This document shows, one piece after another, positions 48,935 through 56,082 of a stretch of DNA of 64,000 nt. The stretch comes from Conus ventricosus (taxonomy: Eukaryota > Mollusca > Gastropoda > Neogastropoda > Conidae): positions 56,459,510-56,523,509 of the forward strand of contig CM031618.1 in NCBI GenBank assembly GCA_018398815.1, in the 5' to 3' direction. A model generated the notes under the pieces. That model was not told the origin of the DNA and did no database searches. It worked only from the letters and a program-made list of their open reading frames with translations. Each line of letters starts with the position of its first letter. Positions within the stretch are counted from its first letter, which is position 1. Both the position numbers and the translations under genes were made by a program.

Positions 48935-49041
48935 CTCGTGTCTGGATTAAACAGGGCAAAACAATGCTTGGAAAAAAACTTATCGTCCACAGTCTTGACC
49001 CGTAACCCCTCTAAGGGCAACATATAGCGCTTCTCTTTCTC
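48935..49041 (-). CDS. DNM: Dynamin alternative PH exon B3
   Basis: Acceptor GTGTTGTCAG before 49041; donor GTACGT after 48935. The 107 bp read EKEKRYMLPLEGLRVKTVDD then KFFSKHCFALFNPDT plus two bases of the Arg codon. It replaces the strands between the variable loop after exon A (KDEE) and the loop opened by exon C (R|NVYK). B3 is the most diverged copy: the usual DNLKLRD is replaced by EGLRVKTVDD, but its second half (FSKHCFALFN) is closest to vertebrate SSKHIFALFN. It is the copy nearest to exon C. Intact coding and splice sites argue for function. Confidence 0.93.
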
Positions 49042-51249
49042 CTGACAACACACAAAACCAGACCAGGGCCATGACACCAGAGATTAGTGTTGAAATTGTC
49101 CAGCAGGGCCCATATCCCAACGATTTGGTGTTAACAGCGCCTCTCCATCTTTCTGGCCGCTTTAGAAAAAAAAAAAAAAAAAGAAAGAAAGAGAGAGAGA
49201 ATCTGGAGTAGGATGGGTATAGGATTAGTATGACTCTTCCAATAAGATGCAATGGACACTGTTTCTGTTTCTCATGGCACACACACACACAAAAAAACCC
49301 CCAACCACAAACATACACTACATTTTTGTGTGTGTTTTAAATTAACGAAAACTGTTTTCACATGCAAGGAGACAACCAAAACAATAACAAACATATCACC
49401 CTCCCCACAGAACATTCAGCATTCCTCTCTGCTGACAGCCGTATAAAAACCAGAGGGAGGCTGACCTAGAAAACTGGCAAAACAGGGTCAGTGAGGCAGC
49501 CTGGGAAAAAGCAATGAGCAGAGAAAGCTGGGTCGCTTATTAACAGACAGCGGTGGGTGACTTCCCCTGTCTGGATTTGTGACTGTGACCTGCATACAGA
49601 TGTGAACACTGAACCATTTTTTGCCGAGTCTTACGCACACGAAGAAATCCTAACATTGTGATTTACATTTTTTTCTTTTTCGTTCTCCCTTAAAATAAAA
49701 AAAGAAGAAAAAGTGTAAGTGTAACCTTTGCAGTTCCATTTCTTCCATACAAACGTGAGTTTTAAATTTGCAGTTCCATTCCTTCCTTACAAATTATATT
49801 TTGTTAAAGAGCTCTCCAGCGGACCAACGACGTCATGAACAGCGCAAGAGAGAAAATTCGACAGGCATGTAGATTTGGCTGTATGTAGACATGCAGAAAA
49901 ATCATCAGCAGATGCTGCTGCACCATGCGGACCAGCCTCATCTCCCCACCTTCTCATCTTCTTGTCTGAATCGCTGGGAGACTGGTCTGGATTTGACAAG
50001 ATTTCATCCTGATGTGAAATGAAAATGTTATGGCACACAGCCCAGATAGGACCGACCATATGCAACCTTTAATCTGCAAATCCCTTGCATTTTTTGTTGC
50101 TGTTGTAAACCTTTTCTTCTTTTCTTTACATGCACTGACATTCTTACTACGCTTATGCCTAATAACAATAATTGTAAAGCAAACAAAAAACAAAAAAAAA
50201 CAACAACCCCTCCAAGCACCCATCTCCATGACACACCAACTGAAGACGAAATTTCATGAGTTCAACTTCCAATTCTCAGTTACTTTCAAAGCGACGTGAC
50301 TGAAGGTGAAAACTGAAGCAGATTTTAAAAAGAAAAAGTTGCTGGTTCCGCTAGACAAACTAGATAAAGAGATTACAGGACATGTCCTTTTAATCTAGTT
50401 GTCTAATTTGTCCAGAGCAACCAGTGACTTTCCTTTTAAAAATTTGCAATTTTCAGTGTGTTCCCGTGTCTTCAAACTTGACATGCGTGTGATGCGTCAA
50501 ACCTCTCCCTCCCAACGCCTGCGTGTCCTGGTTTTTATCACTGCCGACACCATAGGTTCACACCTGTACATCATCTGTAAGGTCGTCACAGTCACAAGCC
50601 CAGCCAACACGCACAACAAAGCATTCCATGTGGTACAGACACAGCTGGGTTGGCCAACACCTGGACTCTTTTTTCCCCTCTCTTTTCCTGGTCTGCAAAG
50701 CACACACAAAGCTGTCCAGACTATGACAGGTCAGCGACAGAAAATGAAGCAGGTATCACCTCAAGAGACTTACCATTACAAAAATGTAATGATTTCACTG
50801 TGAAATTATGGAGTTCTTCTGTGCTTGAAGAGATGCTACAGACCGAATATCAATCTACTTCTATGATCCATTAGTCTCATATACTATGGGACAAAACCTA
50901 CAGATCAGGATCACTCTACGTCACAAAGTTCATCAGCACACTATCAACAGGGAGGTCCAGCTACTGTCAGTCTATGTCATGGTCAAGTTTACAACAAAAT
51001 CAAAGCCATGAACTGTCAATGTTTGTCTCGTAAGGTCATTGGTGCCAATTATGTCTCAACTTGAGAGACCAGGGAAGAAAGGGAAAGTTCAGCTTTTCGC
51101 TAAAAGTATTGTGTTGTGTGCATGGAAGCGCAAACAAGTGGATGAGATTTGAAGGTCTGTTACTACTTAAAGCTGTGTTTGTGAGTGTGCGCACACATGT
51201 GCTGGGACATGTGGTAGTTTGTGTGGGATTTTTTGTTCCCGATTTATTT

Positions 51250-51288
51250 ACCTTTTATGTGGGTACTGACATTTATGTGGGTACTGAC
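51250..51288 (+). repeat. 18-bp tandem duplication
   Basis: TTTATGTGGGTACTGACA occurs twice in a row. Confidence 0.9.
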
Positions 51289-52216
51289 AATTCTTCAAAC
51301 ATGCATTGCAGATACTAAATGTCTTTGTGTGCAATAATGTATAAGAATTTACTGTTCTGTTTGTGCTTTTGTTGTCGAAAGTCACAAACACTATCGCAGT
51401 AAATTTTCCCAGTTTGAGATTATACATTATTTGAGTTTTGTGTTCCAAGACTGAGTTTACTCCAAACTGCTTAAAACTGATGAATGGAGAACTTACCAGG
51501 AAAATTTATCTACTTTCACCTGAAGTCACTGGTTTGGGCATAACACCATTTTGGATAAATCTGTCAACATTTGATCATCGCTTTGAAAAAAAAAAAAGAA
51601 AGAATATCAGTCCCCTTTCTTTAAAAGAAAAAAGAAAACACCTGAATATCAGCACCTTTTTCTACTAAATCCGGGATTTGGGGAATGATTTCTGAAATAT
51701 AAAAATTCCAGGAAAGTAATTCATGATGGCTGCTAGCTATGACAGTTGCAGTATAATCCTGCAGCAGTGGCTAGTGGAGCCAAGCGAGGCAAAAGGCAAA
51801 AAGTTAAGGGCGGACAAAAATGGAGGATTGGACTGGATGCAACCCTCTATTCTGTCGCACATGATCCTGGAGACCGTGATCCATACAGATCCCTGACAAC
51901 CCTAAGGGCATGTCGATGACCTGACGTCATGGATCGTGAAAATGATGATGACATTTTAGCTCTCCCTGGGCCATGCGAGTTAGCCCTTTCATGCACACAC
52001 TCCACCATCACCACCCTGCTGCCACCTGTTTCAGCAAGACCCCAGTGTAGTACCTGGCAGCTGATTTTGAACCGGAAGATTTTGAGTAGGGTCCGCTGAT
52101 GTTAAACAGAGAAAGTATGCGATGGATACCGACGTCAGTTTCAAACAAATGTTTTCACGTTTACAAACAGCTTGGTGGGAAGAGAAAGAGAGAGCGAGCG
52201 GGCAAACGAGCAAGAA

Positions 52217-54130: not shown

Positions 54131-54237
54131 CTGCTTTCCCCATGGAATAGCGCGAAGCCGGCTTTTTTCATAAAGCCAGCCTCAGTGTCACGAAGTTTGA
54201 GATTGTCCAGCGGCAACATGTACTTCTTGTCCTTCTC
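54131..54237 (-). CDS. DNM: Dynamin alternative PH exon B2
   Basis: Acceptor TGCATCACAG before 54237 with a long upstream T-rich tract; donor GTAGTT after 54131. The 107 bp encode [20 protein letters not shown] then [15 protein letters not shown] plus two bases of the next Arg codon. The first half ([14 protein letters not shown]) is the canonical dynamin PH sequence; [11 protein letters not shown] adds two lysines where other copies have S/R or S/K-H. Same entry phase (0) and exit phase (2) as B1 and B3. Adjacent lysines beside a lipid-facing loop might raise affinity for acidic lipids (inference). Confidence 0.95.
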
Positions 54238-55972
54238 CTGTGATGCATTAGAGAAAAATGAAGAAAAAAACGAAAAGAAAAAAAGCAGACTCCCCTAGCA
54301 TCACATACAGAGCGCTTCAATGATTTCTGGACATTGAACAAGCCAAGCGCAGCTTTGGTGGGCGAGCTCAAGATCACACAAATGAAGTTATGAAACGAGG
54401 GAGAAAGGGAAGAAAAAAAGAAAACAGAGAGAAAGACAGAACAGATGTTGAATAAGAAATCATGACTGGTTCCCGCTATCGAGCGCAAATGGGGACAGTA
54501 GCTGTCGGGAATGGGAATCGTTCCACTAAGAAATACATCTCTTTGAGAAATGTACAGGGAACGAAAGACTACAAAAATACCCTTCAACATTCATCAAAAG
54601 GGGAATGCGACATGTATTGTCAAATGCTCAAAAATGCTGGGAATATGTACAACCTTCATTTAGTGCAAAGGGTCCCTATATACATACATATATATATATA
54701 ATGCATGTATGTACTGCATATATATACATATATCAATTCCCAATTTTCCCATTTTGTCCATTTTTGACCTCTGTGGAAACCTTCGCTCAATCCTTATCAT
54801 TAGACTAAGTAACCATCTTTTCTATTTTAATCTGGTGAAGAAAAAAAAAAAGTTCCCTGGATAGTGCTGACTCTCCAAGTTTGTCACTATAGTTTCCGTC
54901 ATCTCTGTCCTAAGAGGAGCCCTCTGTCGACGATTACTCATGGACTTGGATTCTTACCACTTTGAAACCCCTCTTGGTCCATTTAGTAGCAAATAAGTAG
55001 CTAGAGCTGTTCAAGAGAAGGTAAGCCGGTGGTAGGAGAGAGTTAGGCCCCCCCCCCCCACATGGTACATGCCCGCTGCAATTCACTGCATCTTTGACCT
55101 TCGGCAGCAGGCTTTCACCTTGCTACATTCTCCATGTATACCTTGCTGAATCCTTACCAGAGACTGACAAGCCATCCTCCTTGCACGTAATGGTTTTTAT
55201 GACTTACATCAGTCGCAATTGTAAGTAGAAGTGACTCGTGTATGTTTAATGTTTAAATTAATCAAATTTTTTCCTCCTGTATTATTACTGCTGCATAAGA
55301 TCCACAGAAGCTTCTGCTGAATAGTAGAACAGCTGGAGTTTCAATTTCCAAGGACTTTAGCCGTTATTCATTTAACTGATAAAAGGGGGGGGGGGGGGGG
55401 GGGGGGGGGGGGGGGGGGGGGGAATGACAAAGCTCATCAAACGAAGACGACACATCTTAACGTTTCTCAAGTACCTCAAACGAAACTGTACAAATACCTC
55501 AAAAGAAAGTGTACACTAAATGCTTGCTGTTGCTATCAGTACTATTTCAGCAGTAGTGCCATGGTGGGGGTTTTCACAAGCGTTATGTACACTGCTCTGA
55601 ATCTACTGAGCGAAAGCCCTGAGAACTGGTTAGCATGCAGTCGCTATCCCCACGCCTCCTCTCCTCTTCCAAGCTCCAGGCATAAACAGGCAACGGACAA
55701 AACAGGTACACTGCGGGTGACGCCTACACCTCATGCGATTACCATAAGACTCAGGCAAGCGTCGTAAATGCATAATCAACATGGTCATGCACAAACACAT
55801 AAGATTAAAAAACAAAAACAAAAAAACAATCAAACGAACAAAACCCCATGTTCAAACTACACCCAAAGAACTGGTAAGCGAAACAACAGAACAGACCGTC
55901 TCAGAAACGGAAAGGGAAAAGACAAGGAGGCATTGAAAAAAGCCACGACTAGGGCAGCAATTTTACAGGTAC
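54238..55972 (-). other. Dynamin intron between exons B1 and B2
   Basis: About 1.7 kb with TA-alternating sequence near 54680-54735 and a G-run at 55385-55422. No exon recognised. Confidence 0.6.
55385..55422. repeat. Poly-G tract (38 bases)
   Basis: Uninterrupted G homopolymer on the plus strand, C-rich in the dynamin pre-mRNA. Confidence 0.9.
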
Positions 55973-56082
55973 CTATTCTCAGTATGGAAAAGAGCAAAAG
56001 TGGGATGGCGGGAGAAAATGCCAGACTCCATGTCCCGCAGTTTCAGGTTGTCCAGGGGCAACATGTACTTCTTGTCTTTCTC
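55973..56082 (-). CDS. DNM: Dynamin alternative PH exon B1
   Basis: Acceptor GGCTCCCAG before 56082 with long T tracts upstream; donor GTACCT after 55973. The 110 bp encode [20 protein letters not shown] then [16 protein letters not shown] plus two bases of the next Arg codon. It shares the canonical DNLKLRD core with B2 and is one residue longer than B2 and B3, in the SRHPT turn before FALF. Fly dynamin also has a longer turn at this point, so B1 may be the ancestral form (inference). It is the B copy nearest to exon A. Joining two B exons would shift the frame, so each transcript can carry only one. Confidence 0.95.

Follow-up and report, generated by a model that had tools for sequence, protein, structure and literature searches.

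Three homologous, probably alternative exons in a dynamin PH domain

The window analysed here is a 64,000-nucleotide (64-kb) stretch of the Conus ventricosus genome (assembly GCA_018398815.1, contig CM031618.1, positions 56,459,510 to 56,523,509 of the forward strand). On its minus strand lies the 3′ half of a dynamin gene of animal type. The exons are given in Table 1 and follow each other in transcription in the order A, B3, B2, B1, C, D, E1, E2, F, a PRD exon and the last coding exon. Exons A and C encode the two ends of the PH domain, and between them lie three homologous exons, for which the initial annotation had given the limits 48935 and 56082, an entry phase of 0 and an exit phase of 2; coordinates and phases are exact. 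As that annotation had also claimed, the three encode versions of the same segment (35, 35 and 36 whole codons and a split AG|A codon finished by exon C) and each is preceded by AG and followed by GT. Their lengths of 107, 107 and 110 nt are all 2 mod 3. Of 35 aligned residues, 26 are common to B3 and B2; the corresponding numbers are 16 for B3 and B1 and 15 for B2 and B1. These are neighbouring homologous internal exons in one orientation between the same constant exons, with similar lengths, identical phases and usable splice sites, as in a mutually exclusive cluster. The sequence makes it quite probable that this is the 3′ half of a classical dynamin gene with three alternative PH exons, in which A would be joined to one of B3, B2 or B1 and then to C.

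Table 1. Exons of the dynamin gene in the window, in transcription order
Exon	Position	Strand	Description	Comparison
A	60704..60817	-	Constant; first PH-domain part, 38 residues, exits in phase 0	Identical to Babylonia P0121
B3	55973..56082	-	110 nt, 36 codons + AG; transcribed before the other B exons	36/36 with Babylonia isoform X3
B2	54131..54237	-	107 nt, 35 codons + AG	30/35 with Babylonia isoform X1
B1	48935..49041	-	107 nt, EKEKRYMLPLEGLRVKTVDDKFFSKHCFALFNPDT+AG; diverged member	24/35 with Pomacea isoform X4, 23/35 with Haliotis rufescens X1
C	39716..39842	-	Constant; PH-domain end, entered in phase 2	
D	39078..39224	-	Constant; GED start	49/49 with Babylonia P0121
E1	35895..35948	-	54 nt, VKGFIGSDLLAHLYSNDQ; first of duplicated GED pair, phase 0/0	Type in Babylonia X3, Littorina X9, Pomacea P0125
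E2	35606..35662	-	57 nt, TKEFIKGELLAHLYSTGEQ; second of GED pair, phase 0/0	Type in Littorina X4, Pomacea X4
F	23911..24087	-	GED end and PRD start; downstream end approximate	Frame broken: one base apparently surplus, another apparently missing
PRD exon	22978..23130	-	Limits approximate	Frame also broken
Last coding exon	19384..19455	-	RPGSSNARGAPRIPDRPLVPSRPQ; limits taken from match	

Reading frame and splice sites

All eight combinations of the B exons were joined between the constant exons. Inclusion of B1, B2 or B3 singly leaves the frame open through C, D and E2. The frame closes on skipping (A joined to C) and in each of the four multiple inclusions, where the stop falls within the second B exon joined. 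Joint inclusion and skipping are therefore unreadable, and to this extent the frame incompatibility reported in the initial annotation stands. The phase arithmetic is worth little by itself and was rejected as proof of exclusivity: in the 20.9-kb span between A and C, open phase-0 stretches of 107 or 110 nt that are bounded by AG and GT number 37 on the gene strand and 32 on the opposite strand. As such arithmetic occurs by chance, the case for the B exons rests on homology.

The donors of B1, B2 and B3 match seven, seven and six of the nine consensus positions, respectively, compared with seven, five and seven for the constant exons A, C and D. The B donors (GTACGT, GTAGTT and GTACCT) are ordinary GT-AG sites as judged by eye, and a mismatch between U2 and U12 spliceosomes is thus an unlikely means of exclusion. 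Steric crowding is likewise unlikely given the lengths of the introns in the A-C span (1,735-9,092 nt). With crowding and spliceosome mismatch disfavoured, the B exon would probably be chosen by a regulator or by competing RNA structures; the latter are stated for dynamin-1 exon choice in an excerpt of PMC3923563. A run of 38 G residues lies at 55385-55422 between B3 and B2, and the intron between B2 and B1 has long C runs near 52459 and 53662; these runs on either side of B2 could in theory pair. A listing of inverted repeats in this one genome gave 155 pairs, the best 25 of which were mostly homopolymers or low-complexity sequence, and counts of four splicing-factor motifs over eight exons gave small, uncorrected numbers; neither provided a lead.

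Evidence for a single classical dynamin gene

A tblastn-type search of the whole 3.52-Gb assembly with a Babylonia protein recovered B3 with an E value of 1.1e-15, B2 with 5.1e-7 and B1 with 0.15; when the window was searched with the Pomacea B1 protein, B1 was matched at 5e-10. Babylonia P0121 (isoform X3), which has the same residues as those encoded by exons A, B3, C and D, matches one gene over ∼94 kb of a 70-Mb contig, where each B exon is matched once. This identity of residues places the animal among the caenogastropods and probably the neogastropods. The GTPase, middle, PH, GED and PRD regions follow in this order, as in a classical dynamin. Residues ∼80-265 and 333-371 of P0121 are unmatched upstream, the first gap coinciding with a run of N in the sequence. 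Six further rows of 37-59% identity on another contig belong by their look to a dynamin-related gene, perhaps Drp1, which is a guess, and weaker GTPase-family rows were found on two further contigs. Judging from these matches, the genome would have one classical dynamin gene, with the qualification that the search scores the best candidates only.

Occurrence of the exon types in other molluscs

Protein databases were searched three times with chimeric queries, and the best 120 of 216 matches for B1, 120 of 1,843 for B3 and 120 of 287 for B2 were considered. Together these listed 295 different proteins, among them 20 records of named gastropods, which belong to ten species. B1 is found in nine of the 20 records (Pomacea X4, Haliotis asinina X3, H. 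rufescens X1, X2, X5 and X6, and three from Bradybaena), B3 in seven (Pomacea C0Q70_17746, H. rufescens X3, Babylonia X3, Littorina X4 and X9, Gigantopelta X6 and, least certainly, Candidula) and B2 in two (Babylonia X1 and Batillaria). The remaining two are Elysia models in which a B2-like and a B1 segment are joined via extra residues, which looks like an artefact of gene prediction; in one of them, P0001, the order is the same as in Conus (B2-like then B1, E1-like then E2-like). The idea that the cluster recurs in other gastropods is borne out in part: three of the ten species have two types in separate records, namely H. rufescens and Pomacea (B1 and B3) and Babylonia (B2 and B3), and no species has all three. 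Within each of these species the contigs from which the two-type records derive are equally long, and the two-type proteins of Babylonia, Pomacea and Haliotis have shared flanks.

B3 is the most conserved of the three, with 36 of 36 residues in common with Babylonia and 35 of 36 with Pomacea and Littorina; for B2 the figure is 30 of 35 with Babylonia. Two gastropod-like sequences encode full-length proteins on very short contigs: P0122 (839 residues, with B3) on 2,968 nt and P0023 (844 residues, with B1) on 3,908 nt. As both contigs are shorter than the A-C span, they must copy a spliced RNA or be a retrocopy. The bivalves listed for B1 (Pinctada, oysters, mussels and Mercenaria) have a B1-type segment, and no named bivalve occurs among the best 120 matches for B3 or for B2. 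Outside the molluscs, the first half of the same PH segment is partly repeated in a Xenopus tropicalis dynamin-1 model (isoform X6, P0127), which is either an independent similar event or a model error.

Age of the exon types

A tree was calculated from 45 rows and 37 columns, after five duplicates or near-duplicates had been dropped from 50 rows; the bootstrap values were still shifting slightly. In it, the mollusc B1 type (gastropod B1 and bivalves, 18 rows) falls on one side of a branch with a support of 98/97. The exon-type labels were given after the first tree, partly from tabulated motifs, and the motif table thus illustrates the types and does not test them. The species groups used in the approximately unbiased (AU) tests are independent of these labels. 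Holding the Haliotis exons together was rejected (p-AU 0.033), as was holding together the Pomacea exons with the identical Littorina B3 (p-AU 0.015) or all neogastropod exons (p-AU 0.0045). It is thus most likely that B1 and B3 split before the Haliotis and Pomacea lineages parted.

Probable consequences for the PH domain

By the alignment of P0121 to PDB entry 4uud, exon B corresponds to residues 558-594 of human dynamin-1. The K559-K562 patch and the 590-593 loop both lie in this segment. Residue 562 is type-specific (Arg in seven of eight B1 rows and Lys in all 12 B2 and B3 rows), as are the stretches 577-585, which holds many of the differences, and 590-593. We take residues 577-585 to be the β5/β6 turn. 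Variable loop 1, presumably the main insertion loop, lies in the constant exon A. The suggestion in the initial annotation that the gene makes dynamins with three membrane-binding surfaces is therefore right only in part: the patch and the 590-593 loop do vary with exon B, but loop 1 is constant and many of the differences lie at 577-585. With loop 1 constant and these differences in place, the choice, as read from the aligned residues, would probably alter both lipid binding and the contacts with the rest of dynamin.

The numbering of DNM1 and DNM2 is assumed to coincide in what follows. Changes found in human disease fall in the same segment, namely E560K, K559del, K562E and L570H in an excerpt of PMC3776141, with E560K and K562E likewise in one of PMC6277281; the latter describes DNM2 K562E as not binding to high-curvature membranes. 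Excerpts of the former also describe D555del3, a three-residue deletion, and a three-residue deletion in the β3/β4 loops. If these are the same deletion, we infer that exon B starts at the end of the β3/β4 loop.

Duplicated exons in the GED

The initial annotation did not include a second pair of duplicated exons, E1 and E2, in the GED. They are 54 and 57 nt long in phase 0 and share 11 of 18 aligned residues. Being in frame by length, E1 and E2 can be read together, so that phase does not enforce exclusion at the GED. The types were assigned by eye, with no E-exon match for 13 of 44 names. The Littorina records X4 and X9 both include B3 but differ in the GED, where X9 is of the E1 type and X4 of the E2 type, and the E choice thus varies with the same B exon; in Pomacea, P0125 combines B3 with E1 and X4 combines B1 with E2. 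Both E exons occur in the Batillaria model P0134 and in Elysia P0001, one of two Elysia models. Together, the B cluster and E1/E2 could give up to 3 × 2 forms.

Other features of the gene

Two AG acceptors 12 nt apart precede exon A (60818-60829, minus strand), and a choice between them would add or omit MIAQ. In mammalian dynamins a piece of four residues is presumably included or left out at this point. The gastropod proteins that are readable here run GNQ directly into VIRKGW, and Batillaria differs. The gene is intact from A to E2, and the one-base length differences in exon F and the PRD exon are of the homopolymer kind; sequencing error seems likelier than decay. A long repeat array at ∼20600-21950 (minus strand) separates the PRD exon from the last exon. 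Similar coding-like stretches of the KKPAIPPRTPLSSARAGKG type, probably a dispersed element, are found at 5895-6287 and, in coordinates extended beyond the window, at 65239-65448 (both minus strand).

Comparison with known dynamin splicing

The closest parallel is provided by exons 10a and 10b of vertebrate dynamin-1 and dynamin-2, which according to excerpts of PMC2916854 and PMC9652393 are also tandem homologous exons, used one per mRNA, that substitute part of a folded domain; they differ from the Conus cluster in number (two, not three) and in lying in the middle domain. The same excerpts report this pair to be absent from invertebrates, and that of the fitful-mouse paper (PMC2916854) gives invertebrates a single isoform at the middle-domain site. 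In Conus the place of exon 10 is likewise occupied by a single exon (71491-71634 in extended coordinates). A tandem repeat at ∼71000-71260 in the same coordinates has units that hold the last bases and the splice donor of this exon. A second duplicated middle-domain exon was considered here and rejected, since the copies are repeats of the 3′ end of the exon with stops or with no full exon.

Exons 12b and 13b of DNM2 provide another splicing choice near the PH domain, and 12b lies close to the PH-stalk autoinhibitory interface; in the passage of PMC9652393 describing them, these are in-frame pieces that are included or skipped, whereas in Conus a segment of the PH domain is replaced. The general features of frame-incompatible exclusive clusters in excerpts of PMC5740500 and PMC3923563 (homologous exons of similar length and the same phase, with joint inclusion closing the frame) are those of the B exons, although validation of those clusters calls for junction reads and that of Conus is known from the sequence. 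Isoform models of dynamin-1-like proteins from Babylonia, Littorina, Pomacea and Haliotis already hold these exon types, as machine models. No description of alternative PH exons in dynamin was found among the titles and entries listed from open-licence PubMed Central, with subscription journals and supplements outside the scope of the search. The cluster is real, apparently old and apparently undescribed.

Weighing the interpretations

In the proposed mechanism, splicing would join exon A to B3, B2 or B1 and then to exon C, with one B exon in each productive mRNA. Mis-joined or skipped messages would be removed by nonsense-mediated decay, such that the frame filters errors. The most likely effect would be a cell-type tuning of lipid binding and of PH-stalk autoinhibition.

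Several results weigh against parts of this scheme. The isoform records are machine-made protein models. None of the ten species among the listed records has all three B types and six show one type. B2 is backed by two models, from Babylonia and Batillaria, and by the joined Elysia models, and no neogastropod B1 protein occurs among the best 120 of the 216 B1 matches. In Conus B1, Thr replaces Asp574, which is invariant across the 36 dynamins compared, and Lys replaces the nearly invariant Gly578. B1 is the type in four of five H. rufescens records and in the listed bivalves, which speaks against B3 as a general default. The tree also has its limits. The B3 set (eight rows) is supported at 79/77, and B2 of Conus, Babylonia and Batillaria without Elysia at 92/78. 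Gastropod B1 without bivalves forms no clade in the best tree and is not rejected (p-AU 0.24), the same holds for B2 with Elysia (p-AU 0.40), and the test gave no rejection when neogastropod B2 was grouped with B3 (p-AU 0.09). The clades of gastropod B1, of B2 with Elysia and of all B3 are thus neither firmly supported nor rejected, and the firm support is for the B1 type only.

The alternative that survives best holds that B1 is a decaying old exon, still open as its loss is recent, and that the real choice is between B3 and B2. We regard this as the less likely reading. In its favour are the missing invariant Asp, an end branch (0.47) that is among the longest in the tree, exceeded only by that of Elysia_a (0.48), and the absence of neogastropods from the listed B1 matches; a stop-free run of 35 codons is in itself weak evidence for a live exon. 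B1 nevertheless retains its 107-nt frame, both phases and a donor as good as that of B2, and shares 24 of 35 residues with Pomacea B1. It is far less probable that B1 or B2 is a poison exon, joined to another B exon so that the message is cut short and less dynamin is made. The stops within the second exon of each multiple join would fit such a role, but any of the three leaves the frame open when included singly, and each type occurs in whole gastropod proteins and resembles its own type in other species, for which a poison exon has no need. That paralogue or haplotype exons were collapsed into one locus during assembly is scarcely credible: the one-base differences in F and the PRD exon indicate that the sequence may hold errors, but the gene lies on a single contig with each matched constant exon present once, no second classical dynamin is seen among the scored candidates, and Babylonia, Pomacea and Haliotis have like alternatives between shared flanks.

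The reading of three alternative PH exons is thus preferred, with the exons on unequal footing. The likely default of the Conus lineage is B3, with B2 as a second form, and B1 is probably an old type that is specialised or decaying in Conus. Sequence comparison lends the most support to the use of B3, which occurs in several species, moderate support to that of B2, which is known from models, and the least to that of B1 in the Conus lineage.

A broader proposal, which we advance tentatively, is that molluscs with a single classical dynamin gene match the three dynamin genes of vertebrates by exon duplication. An old two-site code of three PH and two GED exons might then set lipid binding and PH-stalk autoinhibition by cell type, with B1 dating from before gastropods and bivalves diverged. 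The PH domain of dynamin is usually viewed as a fixed module. A conserved choice of exons in the very segment that is changed in disease would offer natural, working variants of this domain, in which lipid binding could be set against autoinhibition.

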